From Spirochaetia bacterium (GTDB lineage Bacteria > Spirochaetota > Spirochaetia > Treponematales > Rectinemataceae), in NCBI GenBank assembly GCA_029975555.1, contig JARKOY010000109.1, forward strand, positions 1-64,000: DNA of 64,000 nt, written 5' to 3'. The position numbers and the translations under genes were made by a program. This document shows positions 12,869 to 57,978 of this stretch, one piece after another (within the stretch, counting starts at the first letter, position 1; every line of letters starts with the position of its first letter). The notes under the pieces are model-generated. The model saw nothing but the letters and a program-made list of their open reading frames with translations. It made no database searches and had not been told where the DNA came from.

Positions 12869-13333
12869 ATGAAAAGCGACAAACGGATAATCGATGCGCT
12901 CAATGGCCTTTTGGCCGACGAGCTCACCGCGATCAACCAGTACATGGTTCATTCGGAGATGTGCGACGACTGGGGTTACGAGAAGCTCCACAAGCATTTC
13001 GAAAAGCGTGCGATCGACGAGATGAAGCACGCCGAGAAGCTCATCGGCCGCATCCTTTTCCTCGAAGGAACTCCCATCGTCAGCGAGCTGCGAAAGATCA
13101 ACATCGGCGCGTCCGTGGACAAGCAGCTCGAGAACGACCATGAGGCCGAATACATCGCGATCAAAGGATACAACGAGGCCATCGCCTTGGCCGCGGAACT
13201 CAAGGACTTTGCCACCCGCGATTTCCTTCAGGAGATCCTCAACGACGAAGATGCCCACATGGACACCATCGAAGCGCTTCAGTCCGAGATCGAGCACATG
13301 ACGCTGCCGACCTTCCTCTCGACGCAAGTCTGA
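12869..13333 (+). CDS. bfr: Bacterioferritin
   Basis: An iron-storage 24-mer subunit of normal length (154 residues). All ferroxidase ligands are present at canonical numbering: Glu18, Glu51, His54, Glu94, Glu127 and His130. Met52, the haem ligand between subunits, is also conserved, so this is the haem-binding, catalytically competent type. The ribosome site is AAGGAGG, 5 nt from ATG. It is a single-gene unit with its own promoter (12772-12800), divergent from the sugar operon. Regulation by iron or oxidative stress is likely from family knowledge; no clear Fur box was recognised. Confidence 0.96.
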   Translation: MKSDKRIIDALNGLLADELTAINQYMVHSEMCDDWGYEKLHKHFEKRAIDEMKHAEKLIGRILFLEGTPIVSELRKINIGASVDKQLENDHEAEYIAIKGYNEAIALAAELKDFATRDFLQEILNDEDAHMDTIEALQSEIEHMTLPTFLSTQV

Positions 13334-13376
13334 GAATTCATGGGGCGGGGGGCATATCCTATCTGTACATAATCGG

Positions 13377-14126
13377 TTATTGGTTCTTCTTTTCGGAATT
13401 TCCTTGAGACATCTTGAGCAGCTTTTTTACATTCTCGATATGCTTTTGGTATGCTCTTTCTGCGACACAGATGTCTCCAGACTCGGCGGCATCAATGAGT
13501 TCTTCGTGTTCGGCGACGCTCATGCCCCAGTCTCTGTAGGTGGCTTGGCATGCGGCGATCTCCTTGAGCAGGAAAGAACGAAGAATATTGTAGAAATCAA
13601 GAAAGAGGGTGTTGGAACTTGTTTTTATGATAGTGCCGTGAAAATCGTAATCGGCGTTTACTATCCCGAGAGGATCTTTCACGCTAACCGCCGCAGACAT
13701 AGAATTAAGAATCGATCGGAGCTCGGTTAAAGTAGGCGCAGCTTTTTCCGGAGCGCTTTTACAACTTTCGGTCAGTCGGAGATAACTCCAGAGTTCCATG
13801 GCTGCTCGGAGATCGATAATCATCTCGAGATCATCGTGACCTAATATGAGTGCCCAGGTGAGCACCTCTCGCGAGATGGCCTGGCGTTCACAAACAAAAG
13901 TTCCCACAGCAGACTTCGATTCGAGAACGCCGAGATGATTAAAAATTTTGATTGTCTCTCTGATTGAGGAGCGCCCGACGCCGAAAAGCGCGGCGAGTTC
14001 GGCCTCGGTTGGAAGTTTATCGCCTGGTTTGTAGGCTCCAGAGGAGATTAAGTCCTTGATCCTATCCATGACCTGGTTTACGATTGTCATTTTTTTTATT
14101 GAACTGAAAGGCTCCATTTGCTGCAT
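13377..14126 (-). CDS. GntR/FadR-family transcriptional regulator
   Basis: It has an N-terminal winged helix of the GntR family (residues ~15-80, with YKPGDKLPTEAELAALFGVGRSSIRE) and a C-terminal all-helical FCD ligand domain typical of the FadR subfamily. It follows the liv transporter genes on the same strand by 70 bp and probably controls them or a nearby amino-acid or organic-acid function. A consensus-like promoter (14132-14160) would start RNA almost exactly at the ATG at 14126, so its own mRNA may be leaderless. A TTG two codons earlier has GGGAGA upstream and could be used on read-through mRNA. Base composition is AT-richer than the bfr side. Confidence 0.88.
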   Translation of the reverse strand: MQQMEPFSSIKKMTIVNQVMDRIKDLISSGAYKPGDKLPTEAELAALFGVGRSSIRETIKIFNHLGVLESKSAVGTFVCERQAISREVLTWALILGHDDLEMIIDLRAAMELWSYLRLTESCKSAPEKAAPTLTELRSILNSMSAAVSVKDPLGIVNADYDFHGTIIKTSSNTLFLDFYNILRSFLLKEIAACQATYRDWGMSVAEHEELIDAAESGDICVAERAYQKHIENVKKLLKMSQGNSEKKNQ

Positions 14127-14131
14127 GATCA

Positions 14132-14160
14132 AGTATATCTCCCTTTTTTTTATTAGTCAA
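14132..14160 (-). promoter_or_regulatory. Promoter of the gntR gene, overlapping its start
   Basis: On the minus strand TTGACT (14155-14160) and TATACT (14132-14137) are spaced by 17 bp. The -10 ends 5 nt before ATG at 14126, so initiation would be at or next to the start codon. Confidence 0.6.
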
Positions 14161-14196
14161 AGAAATCGTTGTTAGACTCGCATAAAAGAGCCTTGA

Positions 14197-14913
14197 TCAT
14201 GACATGCCGAGATAACTTTTCTTTACGGCCTCGTCTGATCTAAGTCTTTCTGCACTGTCTGCCATAACAATCTCACCCATTTCGATTACATAACCTCTAT
14301 TGGCGATTTTGAGAGCGACATTCGAATTCTGTTCGACAAGCAGCACAGGGATCCCTTCGGCGTTGATCTTTTTGATGATCGAAAAAATATCCTGAATCAC
14401 TTTGGGAGCGAGGCCGAGGGATGGTTCATCCATCATGATCAGGCGTGGTTTTTGCATAAGAGCTCGGCCCACTGCGAGCATCTGTTGTTCACCACCTGAA
14501 AGTGTGCCTGCTCGCTGATCCCTGCGCTCGTACAGCCTGGGGAAGAGTGTGTAGACATGTTCTAAGTCGTGGGTGGCTTCCTTTGGACTTCTTAGGTACG
14601 CTCCCATATTCAGGTTCTCTCGGACTGTGAGATTGCCGAAGATATGTCTGCCTTCAAGACACTGTGCGAGGCCACGCGATGCAATCACGTGTGGCTTGAG
14701 GCCATCGATCCGTTCTCCGAGAAAGCGAATTTCGCCTGAGGTTATCTTGCCGAGAAGCCCTGAGATGGCGCGCAGAGTGGTAGTCTTGCCCGCCCCGTTA
14801 CCCCCGATGAGGGTGACGATTTCTCCTTCTCTAACCTCCAGTGAGACGCCTTTCAGAGCATGAATTTTCCCATAGTGAAAATGGAGATTTTTTACTTCGA
14901 GCAGATTAGTCAT
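14197..14913 (-). CDS. livF: Branched-chain amino acid ABC transporter ATP-binding protein LivF
   Basis: A 238-residue ATPase with Walker A GGNGAGKTTT, signature LSGGEQQML, and Walker B LIMMDEPSLGLAP, which is characteristic of LivF. It ends with the family-typical KKSYLG segment. Its start overlaps the end of livG by 8 bp. It is the last transporter gene of the liv operon. Confidence 0.95.
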   Translation of the reverse strand: MTNLLEVKNLHFHYGKIHALKGVSLEVREGEIVTLIGGNGAGKTTTLRAISGLLGKITSGEIRFLGERIDGLKPHVIASRGLAQCLEGRHIFGNLTVRENLNMGAYLRSPKEATHDLEHVYTLFPRLYERRDQRAGTLSGGEQQMLAVGRALMQKPRLIMMDEPSLGLAPKVIQDIFSIIKKINAEGIPVLLVEQNSNVALKIANRGYVIEMGEIVMADSAERLRSDEAVKKSYLGMS

Positions 14914-15667
14914 TTCGAGTATCCCCCAGGTAAGCAGCGATTACTTCCTGATTCTGCTGAATATCTGCTGGCTCGCCGAAGGCGATCTTTTTGCCATAGT
15001 TGAGCACACATATTATGTGTGTCACATTCATCACCAACTTCATGTCATGTTCGACAAGGAGCACAGTGACCCCCTTTTCGTTGATCCTTCTGATCGTTTC
15101 GCTGAGCTCTTCCTTCTCTCGGCCATTCATGCCAGCGGCAGGTTCGTCCAGAAGAAGCAGTTTCGGTTCACTTGCGAGCGCTCGGGCGATTTCAAGTCTC
15201 CGCTGTTCACCGTAGGAGAGATTCCGCGACTTGAAATCGATTTTGCTATCGAGCTGCATAAAGTGAAGTATATCGAGGCATTTTTCGCGTACCGACTTTT
15301 CTTCTGCGCGTTGCCGACGTGTGCGGAGAATGCTGGACATGAGGCCAGCACCGGTCTTCGTATGGCAGCCGACCATGACATTTTCTAGTACGGTCATCTG
15401 TTTGAAGAGATTGATATTCTGATATGTACGCGCAATGCCTAGTTTGTTTACCTTATAAGGAGGAATCCCTTGAATTTCCTTCTCTTCGAAGAGTACTCTA
15501 CCGCTTGTAGGGGCGTAAACGCCGCTAATAATATTGAAAAGAGTAGTTTTCCCGGCACCATTGGGACCGATGAGGCCGAAGATCGAGCCTTTAGGAACTT
15601 CCATATCGACTTCGTTGACTGCAGTGAGCCCCCCAAACCTAATGGTCACTTTTTCGAGTTTAAGCAT
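14906..15667 (-). CDS. livG: Branched-chain amino acid ABC transporter ATP-binding protein LivG
   Basis: A 253-residue ATPase with Walker A GPNGAGKTTLFN, the LivG-type signature LSYGEQRRLEIARAL, Walker B LLLLDEPAAGMN and the EHDMKLVM switch region. It overlaps livM upstream and livF downstream by 8 bp each, so the three are translationally coupled. It forms the heterodimeric ATPase with LivF. Confidence 0.95.
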   Translation of the reverse strand: MLKLEKVTIRFGGLTAVNEVDMEVPKGSIFGLIGPNGAGKTTLFNIISGVYAPTSGRVLFEEKEIQGIPPYKVNKLGIARTYQNINLFKQMTVLENVMVGCHTKTGAGLMSSILRTRRQRAEEKSVREKCLDILHFMQLDSKIDFKSRNLSYGEQRRLEIARALASEPKLLLLDEPAAGMNGREKEELSETIRRINEKGVTVLLVEHDMKLVMNVTHIICVLNYGKKIAFGEPADIQQNQEVIAAYLGDTRND

Positions 15668-16637
15668 TGTTCACCGCCTTATCGGTATGCTGCTTCCTTG
15701 AGCTTTCTTTTAGGCTCTCGATGATACCTACAACTCCATTGGGAAGATAGAAAAGGACAATGAGGATAAAGATCGCATAAATCAACATTTGGTAACTTAC
15801 GAAGCTTTGCATCAGTTCGGTTGTGGCAACGAGAATTGCAGAGCCGATCGCTGGTCCCACTAGAGAGCCGATCCCTCCGAACAAGAGCATGGTCATGAAT
15901 AGCGTGGATTGGGACGCCGTGAATGTATCGGGGCTTATAAAGCCCATGAGATGTGCATAGAGTGCGCCAGCGATACCTGTCAAAAATGCACTGACCGCAA
16001 ATGCAAGAATTTTGTAGTAACGGACATTAATACCCATTCCATTGGCTGCGTGCGGATTCTCACGGATCGCGATGAAAGCCCTCCCGACCCGAGAGTCTAC
16101 GATCCTTTTTTTGGCGATGAACACGAGGATGACGACGCCGAGCAATAGGAAGAAGTTGCTCTGGTTTGTAGAGAACGTATAGCCAAAAATCGAGATATGA
16201 GGGATGCCTACAATGCCAGAGGTGCCGTTCGTCAGGGGCACGGTGACTGCGATGAAGATGTAGACCATCTGACCAAATGCAATGGTCAGAAGAGAAAGAA
16301 AGTGCTTTACAAGCTTTGCAGCAGGGAACGCGATAATGACGCCAAAGAGCATCGAAACGAATCCGGCGATGATGACAGCGAGAGCGGGCGGTAGGTTCAG
16401 TCTGAGTGTCAATAAAGCCGAGGTGTAGGAACCAATTGCATAGTAACCTGCGTGGCCGAAAGAAACCTGGCCAGTATAGCCGAACAGAATATCGAGACCA
16501 GTGACTGCGATAATGTTGATACAAACGAAACAGAGTACAAGAGCCAAGTAGCGCTCCTTCAGCATCAAGCCGCACACGACTGTGATGATGGCCAGTGCTA
16601 TTAGAAGCCCTTTTTTCTCTTTCAGTCTATTGAGCAT
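15660..16637 (-). CDS. livM: Branched-chain amino acid ABC transporter permease LivM
   Basis: A 325-residue integral membrane protein with about eight to ten hydrophobic segments. It has the LivM motifs GLDILFGYTGQVSFGHAGYYAIG near residue 47 and AIRENPHAANGMGINVRYYK near 188. It partners LivH. A 29-bp gap separates it from livH, and it overlaps livG. Confidence 0.95.
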   Translation of the reverse strand: MLNRLKEKKGLLIALAIITVVCGLMLKERYLALVLCFVCINIIAVTGLDILFGYTGQVSFGHAGYYAIGSYTSALLTLRLNLPPALAVIIAGFVSMLFGVIIAFPAAKLVKHFLSLLTIAFGQMVYIFIAVTVPLTNGTSGIVGIPHISIFGYTFSTNQSNFFLLLGVVILVFIAKKRIVDSRVGRAFIAIRENPHAANGMGINVRYYKILAFAVSAFLTGIAGALYAHLMGFISPDTFTASQSTLFMTMLLFGGIGSLVGPAIGSAILVATTELMQSFVSYQMLIYAIFILIVLFYLPNGVVGIIESLKESSRKQHTDKAVNNA

Positions 16638-16666
16638 GCTTGATTCTCCTTTGAGTTGGGGAAAGG

Positions 16667-17539
16667 TCAGTCATCCATGACCTGCTCTTTGAAAAGACCC
16701 GTGGGCATAATGATCATCACTATGATAAGAACTGCAAACGAAATGAAATCCTTGTAAGTAACCGTGACAAAGGCGGAGATAAGGGTTTCGATGAAGCCAA
16801 AAAAGATTCCGCCGACGATCGCTCCGTACATATTCCCGTAGCCACCGACGACCGCTCCGGCAAAAGCTTTTTGGCCGATAAGCGCTCCCATAGATAGGTA
16901 CACGCCAAAAATAGGCCCGACCACGACTCCGATTCCACCGGCGAGCATGCTGGCGATACCCCAACTTGCTCCTTTTGTGAGGGGCACATTGATCCCGAGT
17001 GAACTCGCCGCAAGTTCATCCTGAGCCGCTGCACGCATGGAAGTACCAAATTTCGACTTGGTCATGAAAAAATGAAGGGCAAGCATACAGAATATCCCTA
17101 CACCGAGGGCCAGGAGATTCTCCGGAACAACCGAGTAGCCAAAAATATCTACAGTGGTTTTTTTGAATAATGGAGGGAATTGTTTGACGTTGGTTCCCCA
17201 TGCAAACATTGCAATATTCTGCAGCACCATCGCGACAGAAATGGTGCAGAGAATGATATACACTGTCTGTGCTCCTCGTTCGAGGAGCGTTGTCACAAGG
17301 ACACGCTCGATGAACAATCCCAAGCTGAACATGATGATCATCGTAAAAACTAGAGATACAACGAAAGGGAGATGCAAGTATTTATAGAATGTGAGTCCAA
17401 GGAATGCTCCTATCATCAGCATGTCTCCTTGGGCGAGCGTCATGAGGCCTGAAGCCTTGTAGATCATACCGTAACCAAGTCCAACGAGGCCGTAGACACT
17501 ACCAATCATGAGAGCACCGATCATCAACTGTACAAGCAT
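16667..17539 (-). CDS. livH: Branched-chain amino acid ABC transporter permease LivH
   Basis: A 290-residue permease with LivH features: YGLVGLGYGMIYKASGLMTLAQGDM near the N terminus, RAAAQDELAASSLGINV in the cytoplasmic loop, and GGYGNMYGAIVGG near the C terminus. It follows the binding-protein gene after a 126-bp gap that holds a strong hairpin. Confidence 0.95.
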   Translation of the reverse strand: MLVQLMIGALMIGSVYGLVGLGYGMIYKASGLMTLAQGDMLMIGAFLGLTFYKYLHLPFVVSLVFTMIIMFSLGLFIERVLVTTLLERGAQTVYIILCTISVAMVLQNIAMFAWGTNVKQFPPLFKKTTVDIFGYSVVPENLLALGVGIFCMLALHFFMTKSKFGTSMRAAAQDELAASSLGINVPLTKGASWGIASMLAGGIGVVVGPIFGVYLSMGALIGQKAFAGAVVGGYGNMYGAIVGGIFFGFIETLISAFVTVTYKDFISFAVLIIVMIIMPTGLFKEQVMDD

Positions 17540-17607
17540 GAGATATTCCTTCTGCCCTTAATGCAGGCTTTGCAAAAAAATATGCTGTATTTTATCTGCG
17601 CGAGAAA

Positions 17608-17646
17608 GGCTCCGACAGAGGACGTGCGTTTGCTTCCGTCGGAGCC
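17608..17646 (-). terminator. Intercistronic hairpin between the liv binding protein and livH
   Basis: Perfect 9-bp arms (GGCTCCGAC/GTCGGAGCC) enclose a 21-nt loop, followed on the minus strand by only three T. This suggests partial termination or 3'-end protection that raises the level of the binding protein over the membrane genes. Confidence 0.55.
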
Positions 17647-17665
17647 TACGAGGTCGCTCTACGAA

Positions 17666-18826
17666 TTATTTTTTATAGGTCTTTTTCCAGATGTCGTATG
17701 GCACATGCTTCATGTCCTGTATAACATAGGTACGGCACTGGGTCAGACCGTCGCCGGAAGCATCGGAGAAATCATAGATGCCCGCAATGCCAGGGAGACC
17801 TTTGATCGAGATGAAAGCCGCACGGATAGAGTCGGGATCATTGATGTTCTTGGCATTTTTGAGCGCTTCGCAGATGAGGTTGACGCTATCGTAGCCACGG
17901 TACGCCACATCGGAGACAGGAAGAGCACCATATTCTGCCACGAATGCCTTTAAGAATTCTTTTTCGACATCGTTCGCCGCGCTTTCTATGTTCTGCGGAA
18001 TGACCGCGCCTGAACCAAAGATGACCTTGTTGGCCGCTTCGCCAGCCACATTGTAGATATCTGGGACACCGAGTCCCTCAGGTCCGTAGATGAAGCCGTT
18101 AAATCCATTGCGGCGGAACTGCTTGATTGCGAGCGCAAGTTCGTTCGTCATGCCGTACACAACCACCGAGTCTGCTTTTGCGTTGATGATGCGGAAAATC
18201 TGGCCAGTGTAGTCCGTGTCTGTAGGTTGATACTGCACTTCGGCGACGATATCGAAGTCTTTTCCCATGAGAGATTTGACATTAGCAATACCAGACTTGC
18301 CGTATTCCGATGCAACATAGAAGAGTCCGACTTTTTTCGCTCCCATCTCCTTCATTGCTTTGACGAAAGCCTGATTCGGAAGTGCGGCATTTGCGGTACC
18401 GCGGAAAATATATTTGTAAGTTGTATGCGTATATGCAGGGCTCGTACCACATCCAACCTGGATTACTTTGGCCGCCTCGGATATCTGTGCAGCAGCGATG
18501 ATGTTGGGCGAAGAGTTGGAGCCAACAATAGCGATGACCTTGTCAACGTCTATCAGGCGGGTGACTGCTCTGACGGCTCCTTCGGGCGTCGATTTGTCAT
18601 CGTAGATGACAAGCTTGACGGGTATGCCGTTGATACCACCTGCGGCGTTGATCTTTTTGACCGCGAGCTGGGCGCCTTTTGACATCATTTCGCCGGCCAG
18701 GGCATTCGTGCCGGTAATAGTCCCATAAAGTCCGATCTTCAACTCTTTCGGTGTCTGGCTCTGTGAGAATACGGCCATCGATGAGAGGATGCAGAGCGCA
18801 AGCGCAGCAATGAGCCTCTTTTTCAT
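17666..18826 (-). CDS. Branched-chain amino acid ABC transporter substrate-binding protein
   Basis: A 386-residue periplasmic protein of the LivJ/LivK type with signal peptide (MKKRLIAALALCILSSMAVF, cleavage near SQS). Mature domain features are KIGLYGTITGTNALAGEMMSKGAQLAVKKINAAGGI and VIAIVGSNSSP, the latter the ligand-binding loop. It has an AGGAGG site 6 nt before ATG. It is the first gene of the liv operon and is preceded by a ~290-nt leader from a perfect-consensus promoter. Family members bind Leu, Ile and Val, but some bind other amino acids or amides, so specificity is not certain. Confidence 0.92.
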   Translation of the reverse strand: MKKRLIAALALCILSSMAVFSQSQTPKELKIGLYGTITGTNALAGEMMSKGAQLAVKKINAAGGINGIPVKLVIYDDKSTPEGAVRAVTRLIDVDKVIAIVGSNSSPNIIAAAQISEAAKVIQVGCGTSPAYTHTTYKYIFRGTANAALPNQAFVKAMKEMGAKKVGLFYVASEYGKSGIANVKSLMGKDFDIVAEVQYQPTDTDYTGQIFRIINAKADSVVVYGMTNELALAIKQFRRNGFNGFIYGPEGLGVPDIYNVAGEAANKVIFGSGAVIPQNIESAANDVEKEFLKAFVAEYGALPVSDVAYRGYDSVNLICEALKNAKNINDPDSIRAAFISIKGLPGIAGIYDFSDASGDGLTQCRTYVIQDMKHVPYDIWKKTYKK

Positions 18827-19040
18827 AATTACCTCCTAAAGAGAATTTTTTTTCGGCAGTAAACCGCCGACTAATTAATAGCTGGCAAATGCACAGCCTG
18901 TAATCAATGATGGTCGGAGCATTTTTACAGGCACGTTCTGCGTAAAAAACACTCCTGTTTTGCAGTCCTATTCCCACCAGCGGCAACCATATGATGGATA
19001 GCCTGCACACGTTCTCTTTCTTTTGGCTGGCAACATCTCC

Positions 19041-19082
19041 TCATGCCATGGGAAAGAGCAAGAACAAATAACATAAAAACAT
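19041..19082 (-). CDS. Possible 13-residue Leu-rich leader peptide of the liv operon
   Basis: Within the long liv leader, ~32 nt after the predicted transcription start, ATG opens a 13-codon frame with four Leu (TTA, TTG, TTG, CTC) and three Phe codons, ending TGA. No good ribosome site precedes it. No convincing terminator/anti-terminator pair was found downstream, although an 8-bp inverted repeat (GCCTGTAA/TTACAGGC) lies further along the leader. Attenuation is speculative. Confidence 0.2.
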   Translation of the reverse strand: MFLCYLFLLFPMA

Positions 19083-19120
19083 ATTTTCAGACTTTTAAAA
19101 ATCAGACTTACTGACTTTTG

Positions 19121-19148
19121 ATTATACCACCGAAATCGATGCTGTCAA
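19121..19148 (-). promoter_or_regulatory. Perfect sigma-70 consensus promoter of the liv operon
   Basis: On the minus strand TTGACA (19143-19148) and TATAAT (19121-19126) are exact consensus hexamers with a 16-bp spacer. Transcription from ~19114 gives a leader of nearly 290 nt before the binding-protein ATG. The interval 18827-19272 holds no recognisable gene apart from the tiny leader frame. Confidence 0.8.
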
Positions 19149-19272
19149 CTATCTTTTGTAAGATTCTTGTCTTAAAATTCAGTCGTGGTAGATGCCAAGA
19201 GCACTTTCTGTTAGACAGAATATGCAAAGCTCACCGGAGAACTGAGTGTGATGACCTCTTGCCGACAGCCTA

Positions 19273-19680
19273 TTATTCGTTTTTCTTTCGCCAATCTTCC
19301 ACTTGTAAGTCTTCTATCCTACTGAAGTGGCGCGCATTGTTTGTGACAAGGGACAAATTCATGTAGATGGCAGTCGCGGCAATCATGAGGTCCATATCTC
19401 CTATTTTTGTACCCGCTAATTCTAATTTTGTTTTAAGATCTGCAAAAACTTCTATTATCCCTCTATTGATATCAATAATCGGGAAGAGTTCGGCAATCCT
19501 GTTCGTTGTTGCGATATTTTTTGTGGGATGTGCAGATTTTTTGGCTCCATAGATGAGTTCACCATACGTAATGACCGAAATAAACTTCGGTATTGTTTGG
19601 TTGTCGAAGAACCATTGTTGTACACTCCTGTCGCCTCTGAGGCTATAGATGATGATATCCGTATCAATCAAATACGCCAT
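19273..19680 (-). CDS. VapC-like PIN-domain ribonuclease toxin
   Basis: A 135-residue PIN domain. The acidic active-site residues are visible: the first Asp in YLIDTDI near the N terminus, Glu in ITYGELIYG near residue 45, and Asp in IGDMDLMIAATA near residue 95, followed by the usual NNARHF and a late Asp/Glu. Such toxins cleave RNA, often tRNA or rRNA. The start is ATG at 19680 with GGAGAG upstream. It overlaps the antitoxin gene by 17 bp, the normal toxin-antitoxin order. Confidence 0.88.
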   Translation of the reverse strand: MAYLIDTDIIIYSLRGDRSVQQWFFDNQTIPKFISVITYGELIYGAKKSAHPTKNIATTNRIAELFPIIDINRGIIEVFADLKTKLELAGTKIGDMDLMIAATAIYMNLSLVTNNARHFSRIEDLQVEDWRKKNE

Positions 19681-19942
19681 TATTCTCTCCAAACCGATCC
19701 GAAGGGGTCCTATGGGTTTTTATATCGCTGATGATGTCGTCTGCTGTTCTCTCGTCTTTCCATGCACCGGAGAGCGCAAGGAATTCTAAGGTTGCGTTTT
19801 TTGGACTATTTTGAGGTGCATTGAGATGCTTTTGTATAATAGTAATGACTTCTTGGCTTATGGATCTGTTTTGGAGTTTTGCGGACGTTCGTAAATATTG
19901 ATATAGTCTGTCGTCGATGTCTCTGACTTGTAATGTGGCCAT
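19664..19942 (-). CDS. VapB/FitA-like antitoxin
   Basis: A 92-residue protein with an N-terminal ribbon-helix-helix DNA-binding segment (ATLQVRDIDDRLYQYL then SISQEVITIIQKHL) and a C-terminal tail that would wrap the PIN toxin. Of two adjacent ATG codons the second (19942) is better spaced from AGGAGG. It probably represses its own promoter at 19960-19988, where an 8-bp palindrome TTCATGAA lies in the spacer. Confidence 0.82.
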   Translation of the reverse strand: MATLQVRDIDDRLYQYLRTSAKLQNRSISQEVITIIQKHLNAPQNSPKNATLEFLALSGAWKDERTADDIISDIKTHRTPSDRFGENNGVFD

Positions 19943-19959
19943 CATGACCTCCTATAAAG

Positions 19960-19988
19960 AATATATCATCACATTCATGAAAAAGCAA
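19960..19988 (-). promoter_or_regulatory. Promoter of the vapBC-like operon
   Basis: On the minus strand TTGCTT (19983-19988) and TATATT (19960-19965) are 17 bp apart, with a short leader containing AGGAGG. The palindrome TTCATGAA within the spacer is a plausible autorepression site. Confidence 0.55.
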
Positions 19989-20108
19989 TCAAAATTCATG
20001 ATGCTGGGTAGGAATTGTGACATGGGCGGGGTGACCGCGGTCGCTTTGGTAGACTTCTCTGCGGGGAGCGATTCGTGTTTCAGGGAAGCTGCTGGTATTG
20101 CGGCCGAT

Positions 20109-53444: not shown

Positions 53445-54368
53445 CTAATTGGCCGTCACCGTAAAATTGAGACTATCGGAGTACTGGCCAGCCTCAACAT
53501 CTTGCCCGCTGGGGACCGTGATCGTTCCCAGCAATACTTTGCTGTAGAGCGCCTTCGAAGTCTGACTGTCGATCGTCACGCTGGGGCCTGGTGTGTAGCT
53601 TTTGCCGTTGATGATCAATGAGTATTTGATCTTGTCGTTCGTCGTGCTGGAGGTGAGGTAGCCTCCCGACGCCGCGTTCATCGTCAGAGTATATCCCGTC
53701 GTGCCCCTCACAAATATTCCAAAGCTTGCGCTCGCCCCCTGCGAGAGTTCTCCGAGGTCGAGGCTGTAGAGATTCTCGCCCGTGTCGAAGGTGCCGTTCG
53801 AAGGCCCGACCCTCACCTCCACCGTCTGTTCGACGACTGCGGTGTAGTAGATAGTCTCGGTATCTCTTAGAATACCAGTTGGAGTCCTGCTCTGATATAG
53901 TTTTATGGAAAAAGTCCCAGTATAGTTTCCCCAGGGTGCGCTCTGGCCTTTGGCGATGCGGGGATACACGGTGAAAGTCTGAGTGAGGACGGTTGTTTTA
54001 CTTGCAAATGACCCGGCAATATAATAAGAAGGAGAATAATTTGAGGTGCTCTTTATCTCCGTGGTATATGATGAGTCCTTATAGAAGCCTATAGTGAGGC
54101 TGTTGGAAGATGAAGTCAACGCCCTCGATGCTGGAGAGCTTGATCCGTCGATCACTACGGAAAAATAGACCTTCTTATTTGGCTTGCTACTCAGCTTTAC
54201 GGTGAATGTGAACTGAGGACAATACGTGTCGTTCCCGGAATAAGGGTCATACGTGACGGGGCTGGGCATTATCGATGAATCGACGAGCGACACTGTCTGG
54301 CCACTCACCGAGATTGTCATGACCGTGCACACCAATGCAAGGCATAAAATTTTATTTCTCATGGACAT
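53445..54368 (-). CDS. Two-domain spore coat U-like (SCPU) secreted subunit of the chaperone-usher locus
   Basis: 307 residues with signal peptide (MSMRNKILCLALVCTVMTISVSGQ). Two Ig-like SCPU-type domains lie in tandem. The first (~24-160) has the family-like opening SIMPSPVTYDPYSGND and closes with GNYTGTFSIKLY. The second (~185-307) shows YSLDLGELSQGASASFGIFV, GYTLTMNAASGGYL and the closing AGQYSDSLNFTVTAN. SCPU proteins are pilins or adhesins of archaic chaperone-usher systems, for example Csu of Acinetobacter, where the tip adhesin is also two-domain. It is the only subunit gene, 20 bp after the usher. AT-richer than the flanks. Function as surface adhesin is inferred. Confidence 0.75.
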   Translation of the reverse strand: MSMRNKILCLALVCTVMTISVSGQTVSLVDSSIMPSPVTYDPYSGNDTYCPQFTFTVKLSSKPNKKVYFSVVIDGSSSPASRALTSSSNSLTIGFYKDSSYTTEIKSTSNYSPSYYIAGSFASKTTVLTQTFTVYPRIAKGQSAPWGNYTGTFSIKLYQSRTPTGILRDTETIYYTAVVEQTVEVRVGPSNGTFDTGENLYSLDLGELSQGASASFGIFVRGTTGYTLTMNAASGGYLTSSTTNDKIKYSLIINGKSYTPGPSVTIDSQTSKALYSKVLLGTITVPSGQDVEAGQYSDSLNFTVTAN

Positions 54369-54388
54369 ACCCTAGTTTCATTGTAATG

Positions 54389-56863
54389 CTATTTCGTGTT
54401 CATGTGTATCACGGTATCCCCTAGATCGATACTATCCTCTTCCATTTCGGGCAGTTCGAACTGAACCGTTCCATAGCCTTCAGGCCACTCGATGCTGTAC
54501 TTCCCCGGCAAAATGTCGTAGATATCGAATCTTCCTGTTTCGTCGGTGAATGTCGACGTCACCAGAGAACCGCCGATATCGTACACATTGCCCGGCAGAT
54601 ATGCGATCGGTTTGCCATTCTGGTCAACGAGGCGTCCTGTGATCATGTACCGCCGTATCACATCGCTCTGAAAGAGGATGCCACTGCGGTATGAGGGCGA
54701 GACGACCACATAGGGATAGCGTGGGGTGAGATTGAGGGATGCCCCTACCAGATCGTTGGAGATGACGGCCGTCGTATAGTTCGTCAGCGGTATGACGATG
54801 TTTTGGCCGCGCTTCGCGAGATATTGTGCGCCGTTGTTGACTTTGTAGGACGACACAAGCTCATCTTCCTTTACGTTAGGGGCGCTGATCAGCAAAAAGG
54901 AATCGGGAATTTGCCGTGTGAATCCGATATGGTTTCCGACGAACGCCATGGTCGTCCTCAGCTGCAGATATCCGTTTGCATAATAGGTGTTTGTGCTGGT
55001 CGAATAGCCGAGCGTCCCGCTCACGCCGGCGTCGAATAGATCCGAATTAGTGCGGACACCTACAGAGATGGAGCTGTTGTCCTTTGAGCCTGGAAGGAGA
55101 TTGTTCGCGTTGAGGCTTACGTCGTAGAGACTTCCAAAGATAGGCGTTTTTTCCAGTATCGCAAGGCTCGTCTCCCCTGAAGAAGTATGCAGATAGTTGA
55201 GCGAACGCTGGTATCTATCCTTTGGTATGATGCTGAAGGCCAGTAGCGCCGAGAACGTGGGCATTCCAGATGTGGGGATGGAAAGCTGCCCAGAAAGGCT
55301 GAGGTTCCCGCCGGTTCTTAAATTCTGACTGATCGATGCACGCACGCCGTGGCTCATGCTCGGGGGTGAGCTTTCGGTACGAGTGAAGGAATACCCGACG
55401 CTCACGCCTGTCCGTGGAAAAATCCTTGCATAGAGGTTGGCCGAGAGCGTGAAGTAGGCGTCCGGCGCCGAGCCGCTCGGCGCCGAGGTGTTCGGCGCCG
55501 AGAAACCGTAGCCGCGGTAGCTCCCGTAAATTCCAAGGGAAGGAATATACTCTTTTTCCGGTCTTGAAAAGAGATAGCCGATGGATGCCGCCGGCGCGAA
55601 CATCTCTCCCCACCCATCCCAGCGGCCCACGAGGGAAACCGAACCGTTCACGTTGCCGATCGGCAGCGCAATGGTCCCCGTAAGGCCCGCCATGGCGGAG
55701 CGCTTGTCCGCCTGAAGATTGAACCCGCCCGAGAATGTCGGCAGAAAACCGTACAGATAATAGCCCGACGCGAAGAATTCATCCCATGCGCTGGTCGAAG
55801 TTCCCGCAGAGAGTGCAAATTCCGAAGTTCCCACTTGCAAGATGTCGTTGTCGCGCGGAATGAGGCGGCGGAAGACCTGCACGTTGCCGTCCGTCTCTTC
55901 GATGCGGAGGACGAACTCGTTGAGGCCCGTGGTGAAAGGTAGATCGAGAATCCGGTAATTCCCAGGCGCCAAAAGCACTTGCCGAATAGGGCGGCCGTTC
56001 ACCTCCACGGTGACTTTCGCAAGCTTGTGAATGGTGAACTCGGTGGTGTCGTCGATGAAGCCCTGGCGCACAATGTAGCGGTGATTCTCGATGCTTGAGA
56101 ACGAAATGGCGTAGAGTTGGGGCTGCGACTGAAACCCTGTGCCGGGGATGGTGATCATGCCCAGCGATATATGCATCTGTTGGGCATTGTTCTCCCAGAG
56201 GGCATACAGGCTGTCGAAATAGTAGGTCTTTGTCGTCCCGGACAGCGAGAGGTACCCGGACGAGAAAAGGTGCGTGCCAAGGATATTGATGACAGAATAG
56301 AGTGTTGTCGAGAACAAGAGGCTGTTGCCCGAAGTCGTCGACACCTGCAGGTTTGTCTCGTCCTGGATGAACCCTGCAAAAGGCGCCGGCCTGAGGATGG
56401 GCTTGTAGTTTGGCACTTCTTCAGGCACAAAGTCGATGTCCACGACGGGCGCATATTCAGGGGGTATGGTGATGCTGATGGTGAGCTGCGATGAGTCGAA
56501 TACAAAGCTGATGCCGGCGATCGCGAAGTCTTCGGTGCTGAGCCACGAAAGGCTCTTGAACAGCGTGTCGAAGATAGTCGAATAGATGTCGGGGCGCAGG
56601 TAGTCGATGAGAAGGGACGCCGCGAGCTTTTTTTCGATGATCGCTTCGTCGTGCCACACCCCCGCATCGATTTCGCCTATTGTCTTGCCGTTGATCATCA
56701 GCGTGAGGCTGATGGTGAGTTCCGGCGTTATCGTGTCGTGGGCAATCGGTATGTTGGGGAGCTCGTCCTCCATTCTCTTAAGGTCGGGGTTCTGACCGAA
56801 AAGCAGGCTCATCCCCACGACGAGGAAAAGCAGCACCAACAGAGGGATTTTTTTTGTGGCCAT
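54389..56863 (-). CDS. Outer-membrane usher protein
   Basis: 824 residues with signal peptide (MATKKIPLLVLLFLVVGMSLLFGQ). An N-terminal region of ~200 residues would bind chaperone-subunit complexes. The usher signature VTVEVNGRPIRQVLLAPGNYRILDLPFTTGLNEFVLRIEETDG lies at ~275-317 (the start of the barrel/plug region). A long stretch of alternating beta strands follows (~350-690), then the C-terminal domain YMITGRLVDQNGKPIAYLPGNVY...TDETGRFDIYDILPG, typical of archaic ushers. An in-frame 15-bp repeat (55463-55502) encodes xxSAP units. It lies 68 bp after the chaperone gene and drives export of the SCPU subunit. Confidence 0.85.
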   Translation of the reverse strand: MATKKIPLLVLLFLVVGMSLLFGQNPDLKRMEDELPNIPIAHDTITPELTISLTLMINGKTIGEIDAGVWHDEAIIEKKLAASLLIDYLRPDIYSTIFDTLFKSLSWLSTEDFAIAGISFVFDSSQLTISITIPPEYAPVVDIDFVPEEVPNYKPILRPAPFAGFIQDETNLQVSTTSGNSLLFSTTLYSVINILGTHLFSSGYLSLSGTTKTYYFDSLYALWENNAQQMHISLGMITIPGTGFQSQPQLYAISFSSIENHRYIVRQGFIDDTTEFTIHKLAKVTVEVNGRPIRQVLLAPGNYRILDLPFTTGLNEFVLRIEETDGNVQVFRRLIPRDNDILQVGTSEFALSAGTSTSAWDEFFASGYYLYGFLPTFSGGFNLQADKRSAMAGLTGTIALPIGNVNGSVSLVGRWDGWGEMFAPAASIGYLFSRPEKEYIPSLGIYGSYRGYGFSAPNTSAPSGSAPDAYFTLSANLYARIFPRTGVSVGYSFTRTESSPPSMSHGVRASISQNLRTGGNLSLSGQLSIPTSGMPTFSALLAFSIIPKDRYQRSLNYLHTSSGETSLAILEKTPIFGSLYDVSLNANNLLPGSKDNSSISVGVRTNSDLFDAGVSGTLGYSTSTNTYYANGYLQLRTTMAFVGNHIGFTRQIPDSFLLISAPNVKEDELVSSYKVNNGAQYLAKRGQNIVIPLTNYTTAVISNDLVGASLNLTPRYPYVVVSPSYRSGILFQSDVIRRYMITGRLVDQNGKPIAYLPGNVYDIGGSLVTSTFTDETGRFDIYDILPGKYSIEWPEGYGTVQFELPEMEEDSIDLGDTVIHMNTK
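55463..55502. repeat. Three 15-bp tandem units inside the usher gene
   Basis: The 10-mer CGGCGCCGAG occurs at 55463, 55478 and 55493, each 15 bp apart with variable 5-bp spacers. The units are in frame and encode a Ser-Ala-Pro-rich run, so copy-number change would not break the protein. Confidence 0.75.
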
Positions 56864-56883
56864 GCGGCGATTGCCCCCTACAT

Positions 56884-56930
56884 CACATTTTTAGATCAAC
56901 TTTTACAATTAATCGGCGCCGAAAAATGTG
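56884..56930. repeat. Nested inverted repeat between the chaperone and usher genes
   Basis: Perfect 9-bp arms CACATTTTT (56884-56892) and AAAAATGTG (56922-56930) enclose 29 nt that end in the 10-bp palindrome TCGGCGCCGA (56913-56922). It could form a hairpin in the polycistronic mRNA between the two genes. Confidence 0.55.
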
Positions 56931-56931
56931 C

Positions 56932-57672
56932 TTATTCGATCGTCGCCGACAGTGTGCCAGAGTAGCTCGTGTTCGGACTTGCGCCGTCATACGGGATGAA
57001 GAAGCGCCGCACGTTGCCTGGGAGCAGGTTCTGACCCTGAAGGGCTTTTACCTGGTCCTCGGTGAGCGTGATCGAGCCCGAAGGGCCGCCGGAGATCTTC
57101 AGTACGGGGTCGTTGATGAGGGCGTGACGGGTGCCGCTGTTCGTGAGGGTCACCCAAAAGCCTTTCTTTCCGTCCTGTTCGGCGTATTCGACTTTCGACA
57201 CGGACAGCATCTCTTTGACGTTTGGTGGAGCCACGTAGAGCGCGGCGATATACCTAAACAGCACCTTTACCCCTGAGCTCTGCTGTTGAACGAAATCGAT
57301 GGGGACCTGCTCTGCGATGATGCGGTACGCCATTTCCTTGGTGAGCTTGGTAGTGCCTTTGTACTGCACTTTTATATTTTGGAAGGAGTTGGGCTGGATG
57401 ACGACTTTCGTCGGGAATATGGTGAAATCCTTGTCCGCAGGCTCATTTATTTCATTTCCGTTTTCGTCGATCGAGCGTGTCATGGCCTTGATCGAAATGG
57501 CTATTTGCTGAGCAGAATCGTTGGTCAGACGGAAACTGGCAACGCTTTGCGCGCCGCTTGGCGAAATCGAAACGGACATCGGCATGAACGTAAACGCAAA
57601 CACCGAGGCTCCCACTATCATGAACAGCGCTGCGAAGACCAACCTTCTACAACGGCGCAAAGTGTTGTGCAT
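56932..57672 (-). CDS. Periplasmic pilus-type chaperone (PapD-like, archaic class)
   Basis: ~246 residues with signal peptide (LVFAALFMIVGASVFAF). The mature protein shows two Ig-like domains: FMPMSVSISPSGAQSVASFRLTNDSAQQIAISIKA at the first strands, IFPTKVVIQPNSFQNIKVQYKG, and KEMAYRIIAEQVPIDF, which matches the EqaYRlxxeelP motif of archaic chaperones. FWVTLTNSGTRHALI marks the second domain. It delivers subunits to the usher by donor-strand complementation. ATG at 57672 has GGAGG 5 nt upstream. It is the first gene of the locus. Confidence 0.87.
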   Translation of the reverse strand: MHNTLRRCRRLVFAALFMIVGASVFAFTFMPMSVSISPSGAQSVASFRLTNDSAQQIAISIKAMTRSIDENGNEINEPADKDFTIFPTKVVIQPNSFQNIKVQYKGTTKLTKEMAYRIIAEQVPIDFVQQQSSGVKVLFRYIAALYVAPPNVKEMLSVSKVEYAEQDGKKGFWVTLTNSGTRHALINDPVLKISGGPSGSITLTEDQVKALQGQNLLPGNVRRFFIPYDGASPNTSYSGTLSATIE

Positions 57673-57695
57673 GTATTCCTCCATTAACGTCTGCT

Positions 57696-57724
57696 ATTGT
57701 AAACACAAATCTATCAAAAAGCAA
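57696..57724 (-). promoter_or_regulatory. Promoter of the chaperone-usher operon
   Basis: On the minus strand TTGCTT (57719-57724) and TACAAT (57696-57701) with a 17-bp spacer, giving a ~17-nt leader with GGAGG. Confidence 0.6.
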
Positions 57725-57788: not shown

Positions 57789-57813
57789 AGCTTTTGTTGT
57801 CTGCGGTCGATAT

Positions 57814-57887
57814 GGGCGGTTAGCTCAGTTGGTTAGAGCACCAGTATGACACGCTGGGGGTCGCAAGTTCGACTCTTGCACCGCCCA
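57814..57887 (+). tRNA. tRNA-Val (anticodon GAC)
   Basis: 74 nt cloverleaf with acceptor GGGCGGT/ACCGCCC and anticodon arm CCAGT-ATGACAC-GCTGG. CCA is not encoded. Confidence 0.93.
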
Positions 57888-57905
57888 TTCTTTTGACCAC
57901 CGCAC

Positions 57906-57978
57906 GCCGCTGTAGCTCAGTTGGTAGAGCAATGGACTGAAAATCCATGTGTCACCAGTTCGATTCTGGTCGGCGGCA
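57906..57978 (+). tRNA. tRNA-Phe (anticodon GAA)
   Basis: 73 nt cloverleaf with acceptor GCCGCTG/CGGCGGC (one T-G pair) and anticodon arm ATGGA-CTGAAAA-TCCAT. It is 18 bp after tRNA-Val and shares its promoter and terminator. Confidence 0.95.

Follow-up and report, generated by a model that had tools for sequence, protein, structure and literature searches.

The window analysed here, a stretch of 64,000 nucleotides from the draft genome (3.27 Mb, 99% complete) of a free-living spirochaete of the Rectinema group, carries on its minus strand three genes that an earlier note on this DNA had read as a complete, archaic-type chaperone-usher locus. All three open reading frames were recovered as described: a PapD-like periplasmic chaperone of archaic type with a signal peptide and a PapD_N domain (CHA; 56932-57672, the open reading frame being listed to 57684), an outer-membrane usher of 824 aa (USH; 54389-56863) and an SCPU protein of 307 aa (SUB; 53445-54368). 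The chaperone and usher genes are separated by 68 bp, and the usher and SUB genes by 20 bp. Profile searches, which the note had proposed as a check, gave significant Pfam matches for all three products, each passing its curated cut-off (PapD_N, E 1.2e-8; Usher, PF00577, E 2.8e-9; SCPU, E 3.7e-10); phmmer searches of the single window proteins against the PDB returned no useful match. Translation of the chaperone more likely begins at an inner ATG, at 57672 and with GGAGG ahead of it, than at 57684. The operon had also been credited with a promoter of its own, a claim not supported by a scan upstream of the chaperone, which found no promoter-like site, the count of sites equalling that in shuffled sequence. 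A tRNA-Val and tRNA-Phe pair (57813-57978, plus strand) lies outside the system. The usher's close relatives, at 60-85% identity, are encoded by Rectinema subterraneum SURF-ANA1 and by spirochaete metagenome-assembled genomes. In comparison with the closest relatives, the chaperone and usher have dN/dS values of 0.06-0.12, and SUB one of about 0.25. All three proteins are thus under purifying selection, and the higher value of SUB fits a surface adhesin that evolves faster.

The chaperone family profile finds CsuC and EcpB only as weak matches; the profile-profile comparison with reference chaperones gives a probability of 99.3 over 215 columns. Two residues, Arg121 and Pro91, are invariant in 28 spirochaetal chaperones. 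The former aligns with the KEQSYR segment of CsuC, where it corresponds to CsuC Arg89, and the latter is equated with CsuC Pro59 by its conserved place, not by alignment. The arginine is confined to archaic and alternative chaperones, while the proline is invariant across the superfamily (PMC4654587). By these residues the protein is predicted to be a chaperone of the archaic/alternative type, in agreement with the motif that the earlier note had recognized. In CsuC, two further residues, Tyr196 and Arg174 of domain 2, grip the C-terminal carboxylate of the subunit.

The usher can be divided into a predicted signal peptide, an N-terminal domain, a plug-containing barrel region and a C-terminal domain. 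A profile built from 22 relatives matched FimD, PapC and other solved ushers at E-values of 2e-13 to 5e-5, and the profile-profile comparison with six reference ushers (probability 100, E 1e-45, 718 columns) was colinear from the N-domain to the C-terminal domain. Because the window usher is divergent, its Pfam match is limited to the plug region. An AlphaFold2 model of the usher, based on five sequences, reached a pLDDT of only 37 and was left out of fold searches, so that the barrel is assigned from homology alone. A C-terminal regulatory-like domain had been proposed on the basis of the sequence. At residues 741-793 there is indeed a match to PF13620 (CarboxypepD_reg), below its cut-off and found likewise in 19 of the 22 relatives. 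In the profile-profile alignment, this segment coincides with the ordinary C-terminal domain of the reference ushers (approximately residues 740-824; 54389-54646, minus strand), and there is therefore no extra regulatory domain.

SUB consists of a signal peptide followed by two domains, D1 (approximately residues 25-181), with an Ig-like fold, and D2 (approximately 185-307), a pilin domain. The AlphaFold2 model of SUB has a pLDDT of 71, with most of D1 at 75-95 and D2 lower, at low confidence. In structural comparisons with VIA, this model matched self-complemented CsuA/B (6fm5) over 138 residues (Z 13.1, rmsd 2.7). The alignment with the tip adhesin CsuE (6fjy_B) spanned both domains, over 234 residues (Z 10.5, rmsd 6.7), and the remaining best matches were other chaperone-usher pilins and adhesins. 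Both CsuE and CupE6 combine a complete first domain with a pilin-like second domain (PMC10104325). The model and its matches suggest that SUB is probably a two-domain tip adhesin resembling CsuE and CupE6.

No small pilin gene is present in the window operon. Upstream of the chaperone, other genera and families encode secreted proteins that are approximately 150-200 aa long and have a conserved ending of the type Y-x-D-T/x-x, and a profile of such pilins identified five SCPU-like genes elsewhere in the source genome (E 2e-43 to 4e-17). PilA and PilB are adjacent on contig C23; PilC and PilD lie at C65:183-186 kb, approximately 130 kb from the operon; and a fifth gene, on C20 at 84.7 kb (L203:1462-2010), is flanked by peptidyl-prolyl isomerase-like and OsmC-like genes. 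Four of the five had themselves contributed to the profile, so their E-values are not independent, whereas the C20 match (4e-17) is. Taken singly, the small pilins fall below the Pfam SCPU cut-off and are not significant. As a family they compare well with reference SCPU proteins (mature pilin profile; probability 96.4, E 1e-9), the controls, eight column-shuffled profiles and the chaperone family, giving values of at most 0.2. They are also homologous to D2 of SUB by profile-profile comparison (probability 98.7), and a small-pilin profile built without SUB still matches D2 at 2e-6 in the source-genome search. After the signal peptide, PilA, PilC and PilD contain no cysteine and PilB contains one.

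These pilin genes are conserved across the genus. PilA and PilB stand side by side in six other genomes of the genus, pilins of the PilC/PilD type occur in most, and in one genome (G004) all of PilA to PilD, together with the receiver gene, are found on a single 5.1-kb contig. Relatives of PilC, at about 30% identity, are the immediate upstream neighbours of the chaperone in four loci (L047, L048, L057 and L063) and are close by in a fifth (L062). The gene between PilC and PilD (C65, approximately 184 kb; L140:8155-9753) encodes a 532-aa protein with a CHASE sensor and a receiver, which is retained in several Rectinema genomes and is possibly a regulator. Elsewhere, in the loci L052 and L053, a pilin-like gene is flanked by two chaperone genes of the same operon. 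The description of the window locus as complete accordingly goes too far, since the small pilins are encoded at other sites in the genome.

In an evenly drawn sample of 393 Spirochaetota genomes, the Pfam usher model found matches in nine, three of them over its cut-off. With our dedicated usher profile, 38 genomes (approximately 10%) gave matches that covered most of the profile, a count that leaves out matches with weak E-values covering the C-terminal domain only; surveys relying on the Pfam model will therefore have missed these ushers. Strong matches to the chaperone profile came from essentially the same genomes, all belonging to one class, and several of the usher-positive genomes are single contigs. 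A maximum-likelihood tree of ushers (39 rows, unrooted) is divided by a branch with support of 100/99. On one side are the spirochaetal ushers with those of Leptolyngbya, alphaproteobacteria and Vibrio alginolyticus; on the opposite side are those of Acinetobacter, Deinococcus and Variovorax and the classical ushers, so that, in this unrooted tree, Csu-like and classical ushers lie together. The classical (FimD/PapC) ushers form a clade of their own (100/100), to which the window usher does not belong. Its position is deep among the spirochaetal ushers, none of which nests in a proteobacterial group. The Spirochaetota ushers group together at only 73/68, a value that speaks neither for nor against a single origin in the phylum, and an ancient transfer of the usher into the class is conceivable.

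One family in the sample, f13, which we take to be the Sphaerochaetaceae, has ushers of a different build. All 20 examined (L104, L105 and L108-L125) are 1041-1307 aa long and begin with membrane helices, one in L121, L122, L124 and L125 and two to seven in the other 16. The helices are followed by an acidic-rich linker of approximately 90-270 residues, containing proline in some, and in none of the 20 is the usher part directly preceded by a strongly hydrophobic segment. Such ushers may be anchored in the inner membrane. The one-helix forms could instead have a long cleavable signal peptide, which is hardly conceivable for the polytopic ones. As a tentative proposal, of which we are less than half persuaded, spirochaetes may hold an old, separate branch of the chaperone-usher pathway with two new layouts, one being the Rectinema operon for assembly and tip with dispersed pilins and a CHASE-receiver gene between two of these, and the other the inner-membrane-tethered usher of f13 with a linker of periplasmic length.

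Among known systems, the Csu pilus of Acinetobacter baumannii (CsuC, CsuD, CsuA/B, CsuE) is like the window locus in its archaic chaperone residues, its usher and its SCPU-type subunits, and in that the usher gene is followed by one for a two-domain tip protein, with the fold of SUB matching CsuA/B and CsuE. It differs in that the pilins of the window system are unlinked, the window usher lies in a separate clade (100/99) and PilA, PilC and PilD are without cysteines after the signal peptide. The CupE pilus of Pseudomonas aeruginosa, likewise of the archaic class and with a two-domain tip adhesin, CupE6, has its pilins in the operon, and CupE1 has a conserved disulfide (PMC10104325). Plasmid-borne usher loci of Leptolyngbya, Indioceanicola, Niveispirillum, Qipengyuania, Novosphingobium and Vibrio alginolyticus fall in the same usher clade as the window. 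Their gene order is mostly pilin(s), chaperone, usher and a protein of approximately 300 aa, of which the window shares the chaperone-usher-SUB part, and their approximately 300-aa protein is homologous to SUB (probability 99.8, 263 columns). In contrast to the window, these loci have linked pilins, belong to other phyla and show only approximately 20-25% usher identity. The spore-coat protein U of Myxococcus is an SCPU-domain cargo of a chaperone-usher system; at the window locus there is no sporulation context, and SUB has two domains. Judged from its sequence, then, the locus is a genuine archaic-type chaperone-usher system, a new spirochaete member with an unusual, split gene layout. In the usual archaic layout the pilins belong to the chaperone-usher operon, whereas here they lie either on different contigs or at a distance of about 130 kb. 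We regard this as variation in layout because every protein-level archaic feature that was tested is present, and it cautions against labelling such loci incomplete.

With considerable confidence, we propose that the operon and the unlinked pilin genes together specify a chaperone-usher pilus of archaic type. The chaperone would bind subunits as they emerge from the Sec translocon and complete their Ig folds with a strand of its own, and the outer-membrane usher would receive the chaperone-subunit complexes, carry out donor-strand exchange and extrude the subunits as a thin fibre. SUB would pass through the usher ahead of the other subunits and form the end of the fibre as its tip adhesin, with D1 outermost and D2 as the incomplete pilin domain, while the small SCPU-like pilins from the PilA/PilB, PilC/PilD and C20 loci would form the body of the fibre. 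The pilus would presumably function in adhesion or biofilm formation. Some points count against this reading: the pilins are tied to the usher by homology and context and not by gene linkage, the D2 half of the SUB model is of low confidence, and PilA to PilD have at most one cysteine each after the signal peptide, in contrast to the conserved disulfide reported for CupE1 (PMC10104325).

A simpler device is conceivable, in which SUB, singly or as a short oligomer, is all that the usher secretes or displays, the small SCPU-like proteins serving some other purpose. SUB is the only subunit encoded with the machinery in Rectinema loci of the window type, and the SCPU family owes its name to a spore-coat protein, not to a pilus. 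The homology of the small pilins to D2, their conservation in the genus and the presence of PilC relatives inside the operon in other genera all speak against this reading, which we consider unlikely. So does the search for a second chaperone-usher system in the source genome, which found none and hence no other such exporter for the small pilins. That the locus is a decaying or silent relic is far less probable still. A related locus in the genome G017 (L050:9462-11890) does have its usher split into two frames, which may reflect a pseudogene or a sequencing error; the frames in the window are intact, and the dN/dS values of its chaperone and usher are those of genes under constraint.

It is equally improbable that the operon was recently acquired from a proteobacterium or that the contig is a contaminant. 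The earlier note had favoured horizontal acquisition, citing the adjoining tRNA genes and AT-richer DNA, and had named a contaminating proteobacterial contig as a possible refutation. The distribution in the phylum is patchy, and the R. subterraneum isolate genome has been dropped as contaminated (PMC12236494), for which reason our argument does not rest on that genome. The locus is nevertheless present in all nine relatives examined in the genus and, wherever the contig is long enough, occupies the same site, in the order OMP-OMP-MalQ-[SUB-USH-CHA]-GalE-M20 peptidase-MltD-TPR, with the exception of R. subterraneum, where the GalE side does not adjoin the operon. In two loci from two other genera of the family (L048 and L050), the GalE-M20-MltD-TPR side has the same order. 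Between chaperone and GalE, the tRNA-Val/tRNA-Phe pair is also conserved in the syntenic loci; the tRNA genes are therefore part of the ancestral surroundings and do not point to an insertion, and acquisition beside them is rejected on account of the shared synteny and of their occurrence in other genera. The same context in independent genomes across the genus, and partly in two more genera, fits neither contamination nor recent acquisition. The usher tree, well resolved inside the family and with no spirochaetal usher within a proteobacterial group, likewise speaks against both. As for composition, the GC content of the operon is indeed below that of its neighbours, but this is mainly a matter of amino-acid composition, since the usher and chaperone, with a GC3 of 0.70, differ little from the flanking genes (0.71-0.75), SUB being at 0.63. 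A stronger candidate for foreign DNA than the operon lies at 13000-20000 of the window, where GC is 0.40-0.51 against approximately 0.60 around it. Separately, one of the nine relatives assigned to the same genus (G006, locus L051) has a divergent locus with linked pilins and 30% usher identity, which groups with genus g13; genes may have passed from one genus to another, or the genus may be wrongly delimited.

Spirochaetes are not usually thought of as makers of chaperone-usher pili, and the earlier note knew of no characterised case among them. We likewise found no literature description of a spirochaetal chaperone-usher locus, in a search that covered few subscription journals; the phylum is not absent from the record, for a table in a 2016 catalogue already places Spirochaetae among the phyla with ushers (PMC4827864). 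The archaic pathway is usually placed in proteobacteria, Cyanobacteria and Deinococcus-Thermus (PMC4654587), and a spirochaetal system would extend it in deep time. If it is conserved in about one in ten of the sampled genomes of the phylum, the system would provide environmental spirochaetes with a route to attachment and biofilm formation.
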